From Kitasatospora phosalacinea (GTDB lineage Bacteria; Actinomycetota; Actinomycetes; Streptomycetales; Streptomycetaceae), in the NCBI RefSeq assembly GCF_000716545.1, contig NZ_JNWZ01000049.1, forward strand, positions 1 through 48,257: DNA of 48,257 bases, in the 5' to 3' direction. The position numbers and the translations under genes were made by a program. Positions 1,263-5,748 of the stretch are shown piece after piece. The stretch's first letter is position 1. Each line of letters begins with the position of its first letter. The notes under the pieces were generated by a model, which was given only the letters and a program-made list of their open reading frames with translations, did not search any database and was not told the DNA's origin.

Positions 1263-1302
1263 TCGGTGCGGCAAGACACATCACGAGTGGAGGTGACCAC
1301 AC

Positions 1303-1401
1303 ATGAAGAAGATCGTCGTCCGCAAGGCCGGCCCGGTGCGCCTGACCAGCACCGCCACGGCGCTTTACTCCGACCCGTTCTGCGGGTGGAGGCCCTTCTG
1401 A
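1303..1401 (+). CDS. Putative RiPP precursor peptide, 32 aa
   Basis: A complete small frame starts with ATG at 1303 after a strong ribosome binding site (GTGGAGGTG, 1287-1295) and stops at 1399-1401. The product begins MKKIVVRKAGPVRLTSTA and ends SDPFCGWRPF. The N-terminal part is basic and amphipathic, as a leader peptide would be. The last ten residues are rich in aromatic, Cys and Pro residues, as a modified core would be. Codon use is typical of the host. It is followed by a strong hairpin and then by a gene with a peptide-binding PqqD-like domain fused to a membrane metallopeptidase, and by a TPR protein. I do not recognise the peptide family. That it is a RiPP precursor is inferred from size, position and neighbours; a small membrane-active or signalling peptide is the main alternative. 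Confidence 0.6.
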   Translation: MKKIVVRKAGPVRLTSTATALYSDPFCGWRPF

Positions 1402-1411
1402 TGCAGTTCGG

Positions 1412-1447
1412 GTGGGGCCCGGCCGGGGCATCCCGGCCGGGCCCCAC
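1412..1447 (+). terminator. Perfect 16-bp hairpin between peptide gene and peptidase gene (partial terminator/attenuator)
   Basis: Bases 1412-1427 (GTGGGGCCCGGCCGGG) pair completely with 1432-1447 around a GCAT loop. The hairpin lies 10 nt after the peptide stop and 35 nt before the peptidase start. There is room for a ribosome binding site but I see no clear promoter between the genes, so it probably lets only a fraction of transcripts continue. That would keep the peptide in excess over the enzymes. It could also protect the 3' end of the short message. Confidence 0.7.
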
Positions 1448-1482
1448 CACATCCACGAAACCTGCTCTCCAGAGGAGTCCAC

Positions 1483-2706
1483 GTGTCCGCCCCAGTCGAC
1501 GGCGCCCCTGGTGGTTCCCGTCTCGACCTCGACCGGCCGCTGGCGCTGCGGCCGCTGGTCTACCTGCAGGAGGGCGACGAGGTCACCATCGGCAGCCCGG
1601 CGGTGGACTCCTACGCGGTGTTCCCCCCCGACGGCGCCGAACTGGTCCGCATGCTGGCCGACGGCATCCCGCCCAGGGAGGCCGCCGAGCGCCACGAGGA
1701 GGCACACGGTGAGAGCGTCGACATGCCCGACCTGCTCGCCGTACTGGAGGATCTGGGCTTCATCCACGACGGCAGCAGCGTTGCCGCACCGGCACCGGTG
1801 CGCTGGCAGCGGCTGGGGCGGGCGCTCTTCAGCCGAACGGCCTGGATGTGCTACGCGCTCCTGACCGCGCTCTCGGTCGTGGCAATGGCGCGGGCACCCG
1901 AGCTCGCACCCCACCGCAGTGCCCTGTTCTTCACCCCCTCGTACACCGCGATCAGCCTGGTGCTCTTCCTGGGCCAGATGCCCTTCCTCGCCCTGCACGA
2001 GGCGTTCCACGCGCTGGCCGGCCGCCGCCTGGGGCTGAACTCCCGCTTCTCGGTGAGCCGGCGTCTGATCTTCGTGGTGTTCGAGACGTCCCTACCGGGG
2101 CTGGTCGCCGTTCCGCGCCGACAGCGCTACCTGCCGATTCTCGCCGGGATGCTGGCCGACGTTCTCGCCATGGCCGCACTCACCCTGGTGGCGGCCGTGG
2201 TTCGCGAACCGGGCGGCGCGCTGCCACTGGTCGGCCGGGTCTGCCTGGCACTGGCCTTCGCGATCATGCTGCGCCTGCTCTGGCAGCTCTTCTTCTACCT
2301 GCGCACCGACGTGTACATCCTGCTCACCACCGTCCTGGGATGCACGGACCTGCACGGCGCGGCCGCGGCCGTGCTGCGCAACGCGGTGCGCCGATGGACC
2401 GGCAGAGCCGCCGTCGACCTGTCCGCGTACGGTCCGGCCGACCTCCGCGCGGCCCGCTGGTACGCGTACCTCCTGCCCGTGGGCTACGCACTCACCCTCG
2501 CCTCCTTCGCCACCGTGGTGGTGCCGTCGGCCTATCAGCTACTGACCGGCGTGTTCGGACGCCTGCGGGGCGGCGAGCCCCTGGCCGGGATCCTCGACTC
2601 GGCGACCCTCCTGGCCCTCCTGCTCGCCCAGTTGCTCGCAGTCGCCTTCATGGCCCTCAACGACCGCCGCGCCCGTGCCCGTGCAAGAAAGGTAGTTCCC
2701 TCATGA
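1483..2706 (+). CDS. PqqD-like domain + membrane M50-type zinc metallopeptidase
   Basis: 407 aa, with a GTG start preceded by AGAGGAG (1471-1477). Residues ~20-90 resemble a PqqD/RRE peptide-recognition domain: a short beta-rich part (YLQEGDEVTIGSPAVDSYAV) followed by helices ending in LLAVLEDLGFI. The rest is mostly hydrophobic, with about six membrane segments. H172-E-A-F-H176 is a zinc-binding HExxH motif inside LHEAFHALAGRRLG, and a later LAGMLADVLAM (Asp226) may supply the third ligand, as in M50 site-2-protease relatives and 'putative peptide zinc metalloproteases' of the YydH type. The likely job is binding the leader of the peptide encoded upstream and cutting it at the membrane. The stop overlaps the next start (ATGA at 2703-2706), so translation is coupled. 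Domain calls are from motifs; the substrate is inferred. Confidence 0.75.
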   Translation: MSAPVDGAPGGSRLDLDRPLALRPLVYLQEGDEVTIGSPAVDSYAVFPPDGAELVRMLADGIPPREAAERHEEAHGESVDMPDLLAVLEDLGFIHDGSSVAAPAPVRWQRLGRALFSRTAWMCYALLTALSVVAMARAPELAPHRSALFFTPSYTAISLVLFLGQMPFLALHEAFHALAGRRLGLNSRFSVSRRLIFVVFETSLPGLVAVPRRQRYLPILAGMLADVLAMAALTLVAAVVREPGGALPLVGRVCLALAFAIMLRLLWQLFFYLRTDVYILLTTVLGCTDLHGAAAAVLRNAVRRWTGRAAVDLSAYGPADLRAARWYAYLLPVGYALTLASFATVVVPSAYQLLTGVFGRLRGGEPLAGILDSATLLALLLAQLLAVAFMALNDRRARARARKVVPS

Positions 2707-4922
2707 CCGCTCCACGCCACCACTGGATCAGCGCATCCTCGCGGGCGGACCGGGCCGCAGCCGTGGAACGGCTGGAGCTGCCCCTGCCGCTCGCCGCGGT
2801 CAGCGCCCACCGTCGGCTGCGCGGGCCGTACACCGCCGTGGGCACGCTGCTGCGCGCCGTCGTCCCGGACGCGCTGGAGCGCTGCCCGGAGGCCGTCGCC
2901 CGGCACAGTGTCGAGATCCTCTCCACCACGCCCGAACTCCGGGCCCTCGTCCCGGCGTCCAGGGAGACGCTGACCTCCCTGGCCGTGCCCGCGGAGCGCA
3001 CCCGCTTCTACTCCGCGGTCCGCACGCTTCGCATCGCCAACGGTCTCGTCGACTTCCTCGGCGCGTACCTGCGGGCGCTCGGCGACCGGCCCCGGTCCCT
3101 GATCGTCGACGACGCCCACCGGGCCGACCCCACCGACGGCGAGTTCTTGGCCGTACTCCTGCGCAGGATCGCCCCCGAGCGTCTCACCGTCGTGGTGACC
3201 ACGGCGGATGAGCCCCTCGACGAACCGGCGGGTTCTCCCGCCGAGAGCCTCGGCGCCGCACTCGCCGTGCACTGCCGGCACCTGGTCGCCGCCGCATCCG
3301 CTGCGGCCGTCCGGCCGGGCGAACCGGCGTCCGCCTCCTCCTACATCGACAACGACGGCACCGGGGACGATGAGGCGGAGCAGGCGGCCTACCTGCGACT
3401 GTCGCCCGCCGACCGACAGGCTCTGCACGACCTGCGCCGCCAGGAGCTGGAAGCGGCCGCCGAGCCCTCGCTGCGCCTCGGGGCGATCGCCTGGCACGCG
3501 GAGAACGGCAGCGACCCGGCAGGAGCCGGTGCGGACGCCCTGCGGTACGCGCTCGACTACTGCATGGACCTCGGTTTCTACCACGCGGTCCTGGACTACG
3601 GCGCACGGGGACGCGCCCTGGTGACGTACGAGAGCAACCCCGGACACTGGTGGGCCTTCACCACCAAGATGACCACCTCGCTGGCCGCTCTCGGGCTCGC
3701 CGAGGAGGCACTTGCGTTGTACGACGGGGCCCGTGGTGTCAGCACCTCGCCGTCGGTGCACATGCAGGCCGCCTACGCCACCGCGATGATCTACACGCGC
3801 CATCTCGCCGCGGAACACCGGGACCACGAACAGGCCCGCCGCTGGATCAACCAGGGAATCGCCTTCGCCGGCCAGCTGCCGGATCCGAAGGACCGGGCGA
3901 TGACCACCGCCTTCTACCGCAACGGCCTGGCCCTCATCGAGATGCACCGGGGGAACACGGAAGCCGCGCTCGCCTTGGTGGACGCCTGCGTGGCCCGCCT
4001 CGACACCGAACTGGATCCCGACGAGCAAGCCCTGCACCGCTCGGTGCTCCGGCACAACAGGGCCCAGCTCCTCTCGGCCCTCCGCCGCCCCGACGAGGCC
4101 TTCGACGAGTTCACCGCGGTCATCGCCCGCGATCCCAACTACGCCGAGTACTACCTCGACCGGGGCATACTGCTGCATCGACAGGGGCGGCTGGGCGAGG
4201 CGCTGACCGACTACGACCAGGCCATCCGGCTCTCCCCGCCCTTTCCCGAGGCCTACTTCAACCGCGCCGAGGCGCGGACCGAAGCCGGTGACATCGAAGG
4301 CGCACTGGCCGACTACGAGTACGTCGTGGACATCGCTCCCGGCATGACGGAAGCACACATCAACCGCAGCTCGTTGCTGATCGAGCTGGCACAGGACGAC
4401 GTCGACGCCGTGCGGATCGCCTGGTCGAGCGTCGAATCCGGACTCGGCGCCACCCCCGACAGCCCGGAACTGCTCTGCCTCAAAGGTCAGTTGCACGAGC
4501 TCCGAGCCGAGTTCGAGGAAGCGGCCGCAGTCTACTCGGCGGCGCTCACCGCGGCCCCCGACTACGCGGAAGCGTGGGCCCTGCGCGGCGCGCTGGCCCA
4601 CCGGGCCGGTGACCTGGCGTCGGCCATCGCCGACCTCGAACAGGCCCTCGCGCTTTCCGATGCGCCGGGAATCCGCTTCAACCTCGCGGTCGCCTGTCAC
4701 GATGACGCCCGGCACGGGCTGGCCGTGACACTCCTGGACTCCGTGCTTTCCGAGACGGACGACCTCGACGCGCGGCTGCAGCGCGCCAGGAGCCTCGTCG
4801 CGCTGGGACGGACCGAGGAGGCGGAAGAGGACCTTCGGATCTGTGGAGACATCGATCCCTCCTACCTGCCCCAGGTGCGCGAGCTCCTCCCGGACATGTC
4901 CCCGGCGCCGCAGGGCCGGTGA
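2703..4922 (+). CDS. TPR-repeat protein with relic STAND/LuxR-type ATPase region
   Basis: 739 aa, with an ATG start overlapping the previous stop by 4 nt. Residues ~110-165 contain RSLIVDDAHRADPTDGEF followed by a hydrophobic strand ERLTVVVTT. This is the Walker-B and sensor layout of MalT/LuxR-type STAND ATPases. No Walker-A GxxxxGK(S/T) is present before it, so nucleotide binding is doubtful. From about residue 280 to the end there are TPR-like helical repeats; clear ones are ALHRSVLRHNRAQLLSALRR, EYYLDRGILLHRQGRLGEAL and EAWALRGALAHRAGDLASAI. There is no C-terminal DNA-binding domain and no signal peptide. It is probably a scaffold or adaptor for the peptidase and peptide, or a partner of an outside modification enzyme. 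I do not recognise a characterised homologue. Confidence 0.75.
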   Translation: MTAPRHHWISASSRADRAAAVERLELPLPLAAVSAHRRLRGPYTAVGTLLRAVVPDALERCPEAVARHSVEILSTTPELRALVPASRETLTSLAVPAERTRFYSAVRTLRIANGLVDFLGAYLRALGDRPRSLIVDDAHRADPTDGEFLAVLLRRIAPERLTVVVTTADEPLDEPAGSPAESLGAALAVHCRHLVAAASAAAVRPGEPASASSYIDNDGTGDDEAEQAAYLRLSPADRQALHDLRRQELEAAAEPSLRLGAIAWHAENGSDPAGAGADALRYALDYCMDLGFYHAVLDYGARGRALVTYESNPGHWWAFTTKMTTSLAALGLAEEALALYDGARGVSTSPSVHMQAAYATAMIYTRHLAAEHRDHEQARRWINQGIAFAGQLPDPKDRAMTTAFYRNGLALIEMHRGNTEAALALVDACVARLDTELDPDEQALHRSVLRHNRAQLLSALRRPDEAFDEFTAVIARDPNYAEYYLDRGILLHRQGRLGEALTDYDQAIRLSPPFPEAYFNRAEARTEAGDIEGALADYEYVVDIAPGMTEAHINRSSLLIELAQDDVDAVRIAWSSVESGLGATPDSPELLCLKGQLHELRAEFEEAAAVYSAALTAAPDYAEAWALRGALAHRAGDLASAIADLEQALALSDAPGIRFNLAVACHDDARHGLAVTLLDSVLSETDDLDARLQRARSLVALGRTEEAEEDLRICGDIDPSYLPQVRELLPDMSPAPQGR

Positions 4923-5043: not shown

Positions 5044-5748
5044 TCAGCGGTGCTCGGGGTTCTCGAAGTCGAAGCGGCAACCGGCGTCCCACTCGGAGCG
5101 CTGGTTGCCGTGGGCCGGGATGCCGCCGGCGTCCTTCAGCATCCGGGCCAGGTGCAGTTGGTTCCAGGTCATGAAGGTGACGTTGCGGTTGGTGAAGTCG
5201 TTCTCGGGGCCGCCGGAGCCCTCATCGAGGTAGGAGGGGCCGGGGCCGGCCTCGCCGACCCAGGCCGCGTCGGCCTGCGGCGGGATGGTGAAGCCGAGGT
5301 GCTGGAGGCTGTACAGCACGTTCATCGCACAGTGCTTCGCGCCGTCCTCGTTGCCGGTGACCAGACAGCCCCCGACCCGCCCGTAGTAGGCGTACTGGCC
5401 GTGCTCGTTGAGGACGGAGGAGCAGGCGTACAGCCGCTCGATCACCTTCTTCATGACGGAGGAGTTGTCACCGAGCCAGACCGGTCCGGCGAGGGTGAGG
5501 ATGTCGGCGTTCATGATCTGCGAGTAGAGGACGGGCCACTCGTCGGTGTCCCAGCCGTGCTCGGTCATGTCGGGCCAGACGCCGGTGGCGATGTCGTGGT
5601 CGACGGCGCGGATCTCCTCGACCTGGACGCCCTGGCGGCGCAGGATGCCGGCGCTGAGGTCGATCAGGCCCTGGGTGTGGCTTCGTTCGGGGCTGCGCTT
5701 GAGGGTGCAGTTGAGGAAGACCGCCCGCAGGTCGGTGTACTCGGTCAT
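5044..5748 (-). CDS. NADPH-dependent FMN reductase-like flavodoxin-fold protein
   Basis: 234 aa, ATG start at 5748. The protein begins with a beta strand, RAVFLNCTLKRSPERSHT, typical of the FMN phosphate-binding loop of the NADPH-dependent FMN reductase family. Then come DILTLAGPVWLGDNSSVMKK (isoalloxazine side) and GGCLVTGNEDGAKHCAMNVL. The C-terminal ~70 residues extend the fold (FTNRNVTFMTWNQLHLARML). Such proteins reduce FMN or quinones with NAD(P)H; the real substrate is unknown. It converges on the peptide cassette and diverges from the glutathione peroxidase. A broken second copy of this gene lies at 927-1097, on the far side of the cassette. Confidence 0.85.
   Translation of the reverse strand: MTEYTDLRAVFLNCTLKRSPERSHTQGLIDLSAGILRRQGVQVEEIRAVDHDIATGVWPDMTEHGWDTDEWPVLYSQIMNADILTLAGPVWLGDNSSVMKKVIERLYACSSVLNEHGQYAYYGRVGGCLVTGNEDGAKHCAMNVLYSLQHLGFTIPPQADAAWVGEAGPGPSYLDEGSGGPENDFTNRNVTFMTWNQLHLARMLKDAGGIPAHGNQRSEWDAGCRFDFENPEHR

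Follow-up and report, generated by a model that had tools for sequence, protein, structure and literature searches.

A short reading frame followed by genes for a membrane peptidase and a TPR protein lies near the start of a 48,257-nucleotide stretch of Kitasatospora phosalacinea DNA (the window, meaning this whole stretch). Do the three genes make, recognize and trim a small peptide, and if so, what kind of product would it be? Our analysis favors a RiPP-like cassette, at a probability of about 0.8, whose common core is an RRE-fused site-2 protease (RRE-S2P protease) and a pseudo-STAND TPR protein.

The short frame encodes a peptide with a conserved leader and a variable core

The precursor peptide gene occupies positions 1303–1401 of the forward strand (32 codons plus a TGA stop at 1399–1401) and its product, MKKIVVRKAGPVRLTSTATALYSDPFCGWRPF, ends in Phe. 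An earlier note on this DNA had described a 32-codon frame with a very strong ribosome binding site. The frame is indeed there, preceded by the Shine–Dalgarno sequence GGAGGTGA (1289–1296, forward strand, 6 nt 5′ of the ATG at 1303), and it recurs in relatives. Alignment of these relatives separates a conserved leader (codons 1–18, MKKIVVRKAGPVRLTSTA, 1303–1356) from a predicted variable core (TALYSDPFCGWRPF, 1357–1398). The leader consensus across the precursors is MKKIxVRKxGxVRLTxxA, while the core is hypervariable. Tyr and Cys, here Tyr22 (1366–1368) and Cys27 (1381–1383), are the only universal core residues, and their positions shift between cores. Both were found in the core of all 200 unique precursors and of all 38 divergent cores, compared to a maximum of 28 after shuffling. 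Tandem precursors also occur, in 2 to 6 copies. Between the precursor stop and the protease start lies a 17-bp stem-loop (1411–1448, forward strand; z −6.7), also assessed in relatives.

The precursor profile matched this gene at E 2.8e-16, which was the single match in the 7.6 Mb of its own genome at E ≤ 0.1. Compared with a close relative, the window precursor shows 3 synonymous and 3 nonsynonymous codon changes. Among 91 leaders, the three codon positions differed at 0.25/0.135/0.378, with 14735 synonymous and 20817 nonsynonymous pairwise changes, values that are not decisive for selection. Two orphan precursor matches (G202 and G252) were discarded, their regions holding no convincing precursor. 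The division into leader and core, the Tyr and Cys rule, the tandem precursors, the intercistronic hairpin and the neighbors in relatives all go beyond the earlier note.

The downstream gene encodes a predicted RRE-fused site-2 protease

The second gene (1483–2706, forward strand, GTG start, 407 aa) is predicted to encode a site-2 (M50-type) membrane protease, and its product models as an RRE domain fused N-terminally to this protease. The HEAFH zinc motif (residues 172–176, 1996–2010) and the distal Asp276 of an LRTD motif (2308–2310) are both on the forward strand. The H, E and H of the motif, as well as the Asp, are unchanged in 200/200 close homologues, and these HExxH and distal Asp zinc ligands are also kept in 10/10 distant ones. 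The membrane zinc peptidase that had been read from the sequence is supported.

The window protease has no match in Pfam or NCBIfam even at E 10. Pfam PqqD (PF05402) was likewise unmatched at E 10, and one distant relative reached E 0.045, below the cut-off. PF02163 did not match the window protease either, while the distant relative L117 passes it (28.5 against 27.2). A search of PDB sequences with the protease profile found nothing. The PqqD/RRE assignment therefore rests on structure: the N-terminal domain (residues about 18–97, 1534–1773) has the winged-helix fold of an RRE, and its best structural match is the lasso peptide RRE protein TbiB1. The PqqD/RRE-like domain of the earlier note is accordingly borne out by fold, not by family match. 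Lasso peptide systems have an RRE akin to that of the cassette, but their peptidase is of the cysteine type and is accompanied by a macrolactam cyclase.

The TPR protein has a STAND-like domain without Walker A

As proposed, a TPR gene follows the peptidase gene (2703–4922, forward strand). It overlaps the protease stop by ATGA, from which we infer translational coupling of the two genes. Its N-terminal domain is STAND-like and had been called a relic ATPase. This description holds in that the AAA_16 match is weak (E 0.00035, 21.6 bits, cut-off 32.6) and Walker A (GxxxxGK[ST]) is absent, occurring in the first 120 residues of 0/204 TPR homologues. It fits less well in that the motif at the place of the P-loop, RGPYT (residues 40–44, 2820–2834), is itself conserved, as RGP[YF][TS] in 196/204. 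FxSxx-COOH and HaaA cyclophane systems use radical SAM cyclophane chemistry, and NCBIfam names their TPR proteins (NF040586 and NF041717, respectively) as partners of RiPP-like systems. The window TPR protein matched neither model at E 10, and the L124 TPR protein does not count as a match to either one.

The three genes recur together

Among 394 Streptomycetaceae genomes, a homologous short precursor lies 81–516 nt upstream, on the same strand, of 104/105 close protease homologues, a count from which ten protease entries (short ones or second pieces) are left out, as are precursor matches with E values poorer than 8.2e-4. In the same genomes, 0/33 distant protease homologues have a precursor in front. 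In loci from named genomes the precursor was found in 59/61; the contigs of the remaining two start inside the protease gene. The earlier note had named M50/TPR pairs consistently lacking a peptide, or a frame not conserved in relatives, as findings that would speak against it. We found the peptide in 104/105 and in 59/59 assessable cases, and a frame conserved over many genera. The close protease type is present in 74/394 Streptomycetaceae genomes and in 2/396 of a phylum sample, and the trio of precursor, protease and TPR genes is found across many actinobacteria.

Genome comparison shows that the precursor family is genetically locked to two partners, the predicted RRE-fused site-2 protease and the TPR/pseudo-STAND protein. 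The features looked for in a RiPP are found here: a ribosomal precursor with a conserved leader and a variable core, and, judging by linkage and modeled fold, a putative leader-recognition domain and a protease encoded with it. The recurring trio and the kept Tyr and Cys point to an undescribed family of bacterial peptides that are made and trimmed. In agreement with the earlier note, neither the leader nor the cassette was found described in open-licence PMC texts, supplements aside.

Genomic neighbors differ between relatives

The Pfam scan of the window covered 32 other genes, at least 6 called genes being outside it. As the earlier note had stated for the surroundings of the cassette, none of the 32 is a LanM, radical SAM, YcaO (cyclodehydratase) or P450 gene; a PF00465 oxidative decarboxylase and a PF00202 aminotransferase are absent among them too. 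The window holds two methyltransferases, 9 and 21 kb from the cassette. As to LanM, the genome has one PF13575 match, on another contig.

LanM and LanD are enzymes of class II lanthipeptides. In relatives, LanM lies within 10 kb of the cassette in 4/105 places and additionally at locus L080 (carriers G050, G074, G111, G189 and L080), and a LanD-like flavoprotein gene adjoins three cassettes whose precursors end in a C-terminal Cys. LanM is not near most cassettes and was not found in 24/73 genomes. Among the genes scanned, no RiPP enzyme is near the window copy, but the presence of LanM and the LanD-like flavoprotein beside a few cassettes independently supports the RiPP reading. It also means that use of the peptide without heavy modification, one option in the earlier note, does not hold generally.

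Flavin enzymes, including flavin reductase and OYE types, are near the cassette at 45/80 loci. Regulators of SARP/STAND type (SARP, AfsR-type, LAL; four LAL genes are included) lie within −3 to +5 genes at 49/80 loci, an enrichment over distant slots; 31/80 loci, including the window, have none. No position-specific transporter, exporter or immunity gene was seen among the neighbors. None of 5 proteins matched a known defense system in PADLOC-DB at E 0.01. An association of the flavin enzyme with core order (raw counts 37/48 vs 8/32) was dropped, as it was unsupported in independent pairs.

Comparison with described systems

We considered whether the cassette could be a divergent member of a described RRE-S2P or M50 class (daptide, epipeptide, pearlin) or of the class II lanthipeptides, and judge this improbable. 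Excerpts of the daptide work describe MpaA precursors and MpaP, an RRE-fused intramembrane peptidase (PMC10036551). This arrangement resembles the cassette in its site-2 protease with an N-terminal RRE, its short and often multiple precursors and its first discovery in Actinomycetota. The same excerpts give daptides a leader ELExMEAP and an invariant C-terminal Thr, neither of which is in the precursors here, as well as an oxidative decarboxylase, an aminotransferase, a methyltransferase and ABC transporters, a set not seen here (PMC10036551). L117 matches the daptide protease model (E 4.5e-8, 32.6 bits against a cut-off of 300), whereas the window protease does not. The few cassettes with LanM and the LanD-like flavoprotein, the latter with C-terminal Cys, resemble class II lanthipeptide systems. 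Neither enzyme is near most cassettes or near that of the window, and the leader would here be processed by the RRE-S2P protease.

YydF and YydH are an epipeptide precursor/protease pair; epipeptide systems have a radical SAM epimerase, and their protease is not known to carry an RRE. No radical SAM gene is seen near the cassette. What is similar, going by part of the source, is that the M50 membrane protease EpeP acts on the small EpeX precursor and may also export it (PMC10885120). According to the same excerpts, the pearlin systems resemble the cassette in having a membrane M50 protease (TglG/TmoG), a carrier peptide and cysteine chemistry, but differ in that these proteases trim a scaffold peptide by a C-terminal amino acid (PMC10885120). 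In the cassette, the Cys mostly lies inside the core, and PEARL enzymes were not seen. In TMcin, as far as the excerpts go, the S2P-clan HExxH protease TmcP takes the leader off a RiPP precursor within the membrane; this type of protease with a RiPP-like precursor is shared, while the transmembrane precursor and the DUF3267 protease, for which these excerpts describe no RRE, differ (PMC13252029). Membership of the daptides, epipeptides or pearlins was dropped, as the MpaB/C/D/M set, radical SAM and PEARL genes are absent among the annotated neighbors.

Proposed mechanism and nature of the product

The precursor would be made in excess, as inferred from its strong ribosome binding site and the hairpin before the protease gene. 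The IxVRK...VRLT leader may join the protease RRE as an added beta-strand, and the TPR superhelix may hold or present the precursor and its partners. A step requiring both residues would fold or cross-link the Tyr/Cys core or modify it in another way, with extra tailoring specific to lineages. At the membrane, the S2P active site would cut between leader and core and set a short peptide free. That the protease recognizes and cuts the precursor is strongly implied; it may also export the peptide.

Whether the product is a natural product or a signal is the least certain part of this explanation. Tentatively, we rank highest a secreted natural product, antimicrobial or other, namely a RiPP whose structure depends on Tyr and Cys and which would resemble a lanthipeptide at loci with LanM and LanD-like genes. 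The leader-core architecture, hypervariable core, tandem precursors, patchy distribution, frequent flavin enzymes and the few LanM and LanD-like genes argue for it, and the LanM find moved the odds towards it and away from a signal. Established modifying enzymes are nevertheless missing at most loci, the window included, and no position-specific transporter or immunity gene was seen. This last result would suit a pheromone, which we also regard as possible and rank next: the protease would free a short peptide read by STAND/TPR regulators or by the TPR protein, with core variability as signal specificity. M50-type proteases such as Eep mature pheromones in other systems and may serve as a precedent by analogy, and the regulators are enriched near the cassette. 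Against it, the window is among the loci without such regulators, SARPs and LALs occur in antibiotic clusters too, and the few LanM/LanD-like genes point to a tailored product.

An intracellular product seems unlikely; here the core would be turned into a metal ligand or a group resembling a cofactor, for use by the TPR protein or by some flavin enzyme. The universal Tyr and Cys and the nearby flavin enzymes would fit, but precursors of PQQ- and mycofactocin-like cofactors vary far less in core length and sequence, and no recurrent apo-enzyme was seen. Hardly credible is an attenuator or leader ORF that merely regulates translation of the protease gene. It would account for the strong ribosome binding site and the stable hairpin, yet amino-acid conservation between genera is seen at the N-terminus, next to a variable C-terminus, the Tyr and Cys positions shift and the neighboring gene encodes an RRE; we rejected it on the tandem copies and the amino-acid conservation.

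For the RiPP-like cassette, a bolder and rather doubtful proposal is a new RiPP class on a shared maturation chassis, in which the RRE-S2P protease and the pseudo-STAND TPR protein recognize a single type of leader. Lineages would add their own tailoring, by a flavin reductase, by OYE or by LanM together with a LanD-like decarboxylase. One of the two universal proteins would carry out a family-wide Tyr/Cys-dependent modification, e.g. a Tyr–Cys cross-link of freely variable ring size in either order, a chemistry for which no RiPP enzyme is established.

The precursor and protease form a defined pair that is widespread in antibiotic-producing actinobacteria and apparently has no name. It is easily overlooked because the precursor gene has only some 30 codons and the protease matches neither Pfam nor NCBIfam. 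The Tyr and Cys rule and the relatives bearing LanM or LanD-like genes make the chemistry directly testable. If the product does signal to SARP-type regulators, it would give a means of acting on gene clusters that are silent.

Results

The window cassette

The earlier note had described a peptide frame, an HEAFH protein and a TPR protein, and the sequence places all three where it put them. The precursor frame (32 codons, 1303-1401) has GGAGGTGA 6 bases 5' of its ATG. The protease (407 aa, HEAFH at residues 172-176) occupies 1483-2706 and the TPR protein (739 aa) 2703-4922, its ATG overlapping the protease stop (ATGA). Neither peptide nor protease matched Pfam or NCBIfam, even at E 10; in the TPR protein, the same searches recognised TPRs clearly and AAA_16 weakly. 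The precursor-protease gap contains a 17-bp stem (z -6.7), and this gap shows z <= -2 in 52 of 68 distinct loci.

Downstream lies an FMN_red flavoprotein gene (5044-5748, minus strand), which belongs to the local backbone: 55 of 70 genomes from the genus have a match. The cassette is flanked by a 157-nt FMN_red fragment (941-1097) and the full copy (matching part 5328-5484), 94% alike. At a related locus (L155, G183:C1:4408000-4420000), the FMN_red, GPx and isochorismatase block is shared with the window and no cassette follows FMN_red; the window cassette therefore looks like an accessory insertion. Extra partial FMN_red copies, mostly reaching the gene end, start at nt 259-270 of the gene in 7 of 10 fetched genus regions, seven of the ten having been picked because such copies were already listed there. 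In genome G069 (L160), FMN_red is split at this point by an ORF that by eye resembles a transposase. Is nt 259-270 a recurrent insertion point?

The precursor is locked to the protease and the TPR protein

The conserved precursor family is genetically locked to a predicted RRE-fused site-2 protease and a TPR protein. Protease matches occurred in 102 of 394 Streptomycetaceae genomes (E 1e-3), and a precursor profile was run independently on the same genomes before both lists were joined. The earlier note had proposed looking for short frames upstream of homologous proteases; at E <= 1e-50 we found them at 104 of 105 close protease places (74 genomes), on the same strand and 81-516 nt upstream from match to match, in a joined list that omits ten short or second-piece protease rows. 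Conversely, a close protease adjoins 115 of the 117 precursor matches with E <= 8.2e-4. The lone exception among the 105 close protease places, genome G132 (L093), carries directly upstream a frame ending RLTTACYYSCSQA, which looks like a decayed precursor because this ending by eye resembles the core (the hypervariable part after the leader) of locus L112. Beside distant proteases (E between 1e-40 and 1e-13), the joined lists show no such upstream precursor at any of 33 places.

In named genomes, 61 protease loci were identified, in genera including Streptomyces, Kitasatospora, Streptosporangium, Lentzea, Amycolatopsis, Actinokineospora, Micromonospora, Actinoplanes and Stackebrandtia. The precursor was detected in 56 at first and in three more with relaxed criteria; in the remaining two, the contig starts within the protease gene. 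Thus M50/TPR pairs consistently lacking a peptide, the pattern that the earlier note had set against its own proposal, were not what we found (59 of 61 with precursor). In a phylum-wide sample, only 4 of 396 genomes matched at E 1e-10, own genome counted, and two of these were of the close type; the system is therefore patchy. A public search with the precursor alignment returned 541 proteins at E <= 10, and the 120 matches listed were unnamed or hypothetical except one 'Transposase'. A 43% identical protease lies at the edge of a 4.6-kb contig of a binned Deltaproteobacteria MAG (L090), through either transfer or misbinning.

A TPR family gene was called in 84 of 94 loci with a protease of the cluster; the other ten are nine of the distant type and L111, which has an apparent fragment of the gene. 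Among 204 TPR proteins (84 from loci and 120 among the matches listed, partly overlapping), none has a Walker A motif in its first 120 residues and 196 carry RGP[YF][TS]. The predicted structure is confident (pLDDT 94), and its TPR part resembles superhelices such as that of OGT.

Every core examined contains both Tyr and Cys

Across 34 aligned precursors, M1, K2, R7 and T15 never vary, and K3, I4, K8, G10, V12, R13, L14, A18 and Y22 hardly vary; about 3 to 20 hypervariable residues follow Tyr22. Arrays hold two precursors (L034), three (L036), four (L030), six (L082 and L091) or two plus a divergent third (L037). Decayed copies with broken leaders occur within the L036 and L037 arrays.

All 200 unique precursors have both Cys and Tyr after residue 15, and none has Cys in the first 15 residues. 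Of these, 95 came from fetched loci and were picked by leader pattern alone, without Tyr bias; the rest, from among the 120 public matches listed, are biased for Tyr because the search profile contains a Tyr column. Both residues are present in 38 of 38 cores less than 50% alike, compared with 19.8 on average and at most 28 when the same residues were randomly re-dealt (2000 trials). Relative to Tyr, the closest Cys is found at positions -3 to +10. The order of the two switches at least 6 times on an 80-protease tree with both retained, so common descent alone does not account for the rule. One counter-case is a decayed extra L036 copy, where Phe replaces Tyr.

Tailoring genes and regulators beside the cassette

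RiPP tailoring genes stand beside some members. A Flavin_Reduct or OYE gene lies at most three genes downstream in 45 of 80 loci of relatives, compared with no match among 279 gene slots at a distance of six to eight genes. In seven Streptosporangiaceae loci (L042, L044, L045, L046, L050, L054 and L055), an OYE homologue replaces the flavin reductase 3' of the TPR gene. SARP, AfsR-type or LAL regulators occur within -3 to +5 genes in 49 of 80 loci, and ABC ATPases, two-component pairs and MFS proteins at scattered positions. Neither type of flavin gene nor any such regulator adjoins the window cassette; the own genome has five Flavin_Reduct genes, all on other contigs. As the earlier note held for radical SAM, LanM and P450, Pfam found none of these, nor YcaO, among 32 window genes scanned besides the protease and TPR genes (of at least 38 such called genes); two methyltransferase genes are present, at distances of 9 and 21 kb.

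Among the relatives' recurrent neighbour clusters, annotated through representatives of the larger ones, one is LanM (DUF4135 and LANC_like domains), adjoining the cassette in L109 (G050), L111 (G074, split) and L080. LanM was found in 49 of 73 cassette genomes, with no match in 24; it lies within 10 kb at 4 of 105 places (G050, G074, G111 and the second G189 cassette) and at 15-28 kb in four more. The own genome has one match, on another contig. In G111 and G189, precursor, protease, TPR and flavin reductase genes share one strand, and a LanD-like Flavoprotein gene (PF02441), a LAL regulator and LanM diverge from them. Loci L161 (5544-16365) and L162 (549-11443) each form a coherent cluster in which a precursor with a C-terminal Cys is accompanied by protease, TPR, flavin reductase, LanD-like flavoprotein, LAL regulator and LanM genes.

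The LanD-like gene also adjoins the cassette of L096 (G043, no LanM match). The three cores beside it end in Cys (YILTVC, YVLVVC, YCTDCC), as do only 4 of 80 locus cores. The L094 and L095 cores also have a terminal Cys, without this neighbour. Because the three loci are close relatives, the association is statistically weak. Decarboxylation of a C-terminal Cys is the reaction of LanD-type enzymes, which gives these loci a product prediction open to test.

Distant proteases

A ThiF-family gene lies directly upstream in 7 of the 10 distant-protease loci listed; two of three checked by Pfam have a weak PaaA-like N-terminal domain. After RBS filtering, L114 has three short tandem frames MA[DE]VIVIRKLDKKETT..., and L118 and L120 one similar frame each. 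These sequences suggest a possible second RiPP-like family, and the range of the protease family may extend to further precursors, those whose leader reads [IV]x[IV]R. L118 (G387:C1:530000-549900) holds both systems in one 13-kb stretch: ThiF, distant protease, AfsR-type regulator and SARP, then precursor, close protease, TPR and flavin reductase.

Discussion

The protease principle is already known: daptide leaders are removed by RRE-fused site-2 proteases (PMC10036551), the type predicted for our cassette, and M50 proteases occur in epipeptides and pearlins (PMC10885120). The leader family, gene set, TPR partner and Tyr/Cys rule have no description in the open-licence literature searched, including passages of PMC12710340, PMC7470986, PMC13381572, PMC12257519 and PMC13252029. 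In the mechanism we propose, the precursor leader would be bound, cleavage would take place at the membrane, the TPR protein would serve as scaffold, and one step would require both Tyr and Cys.
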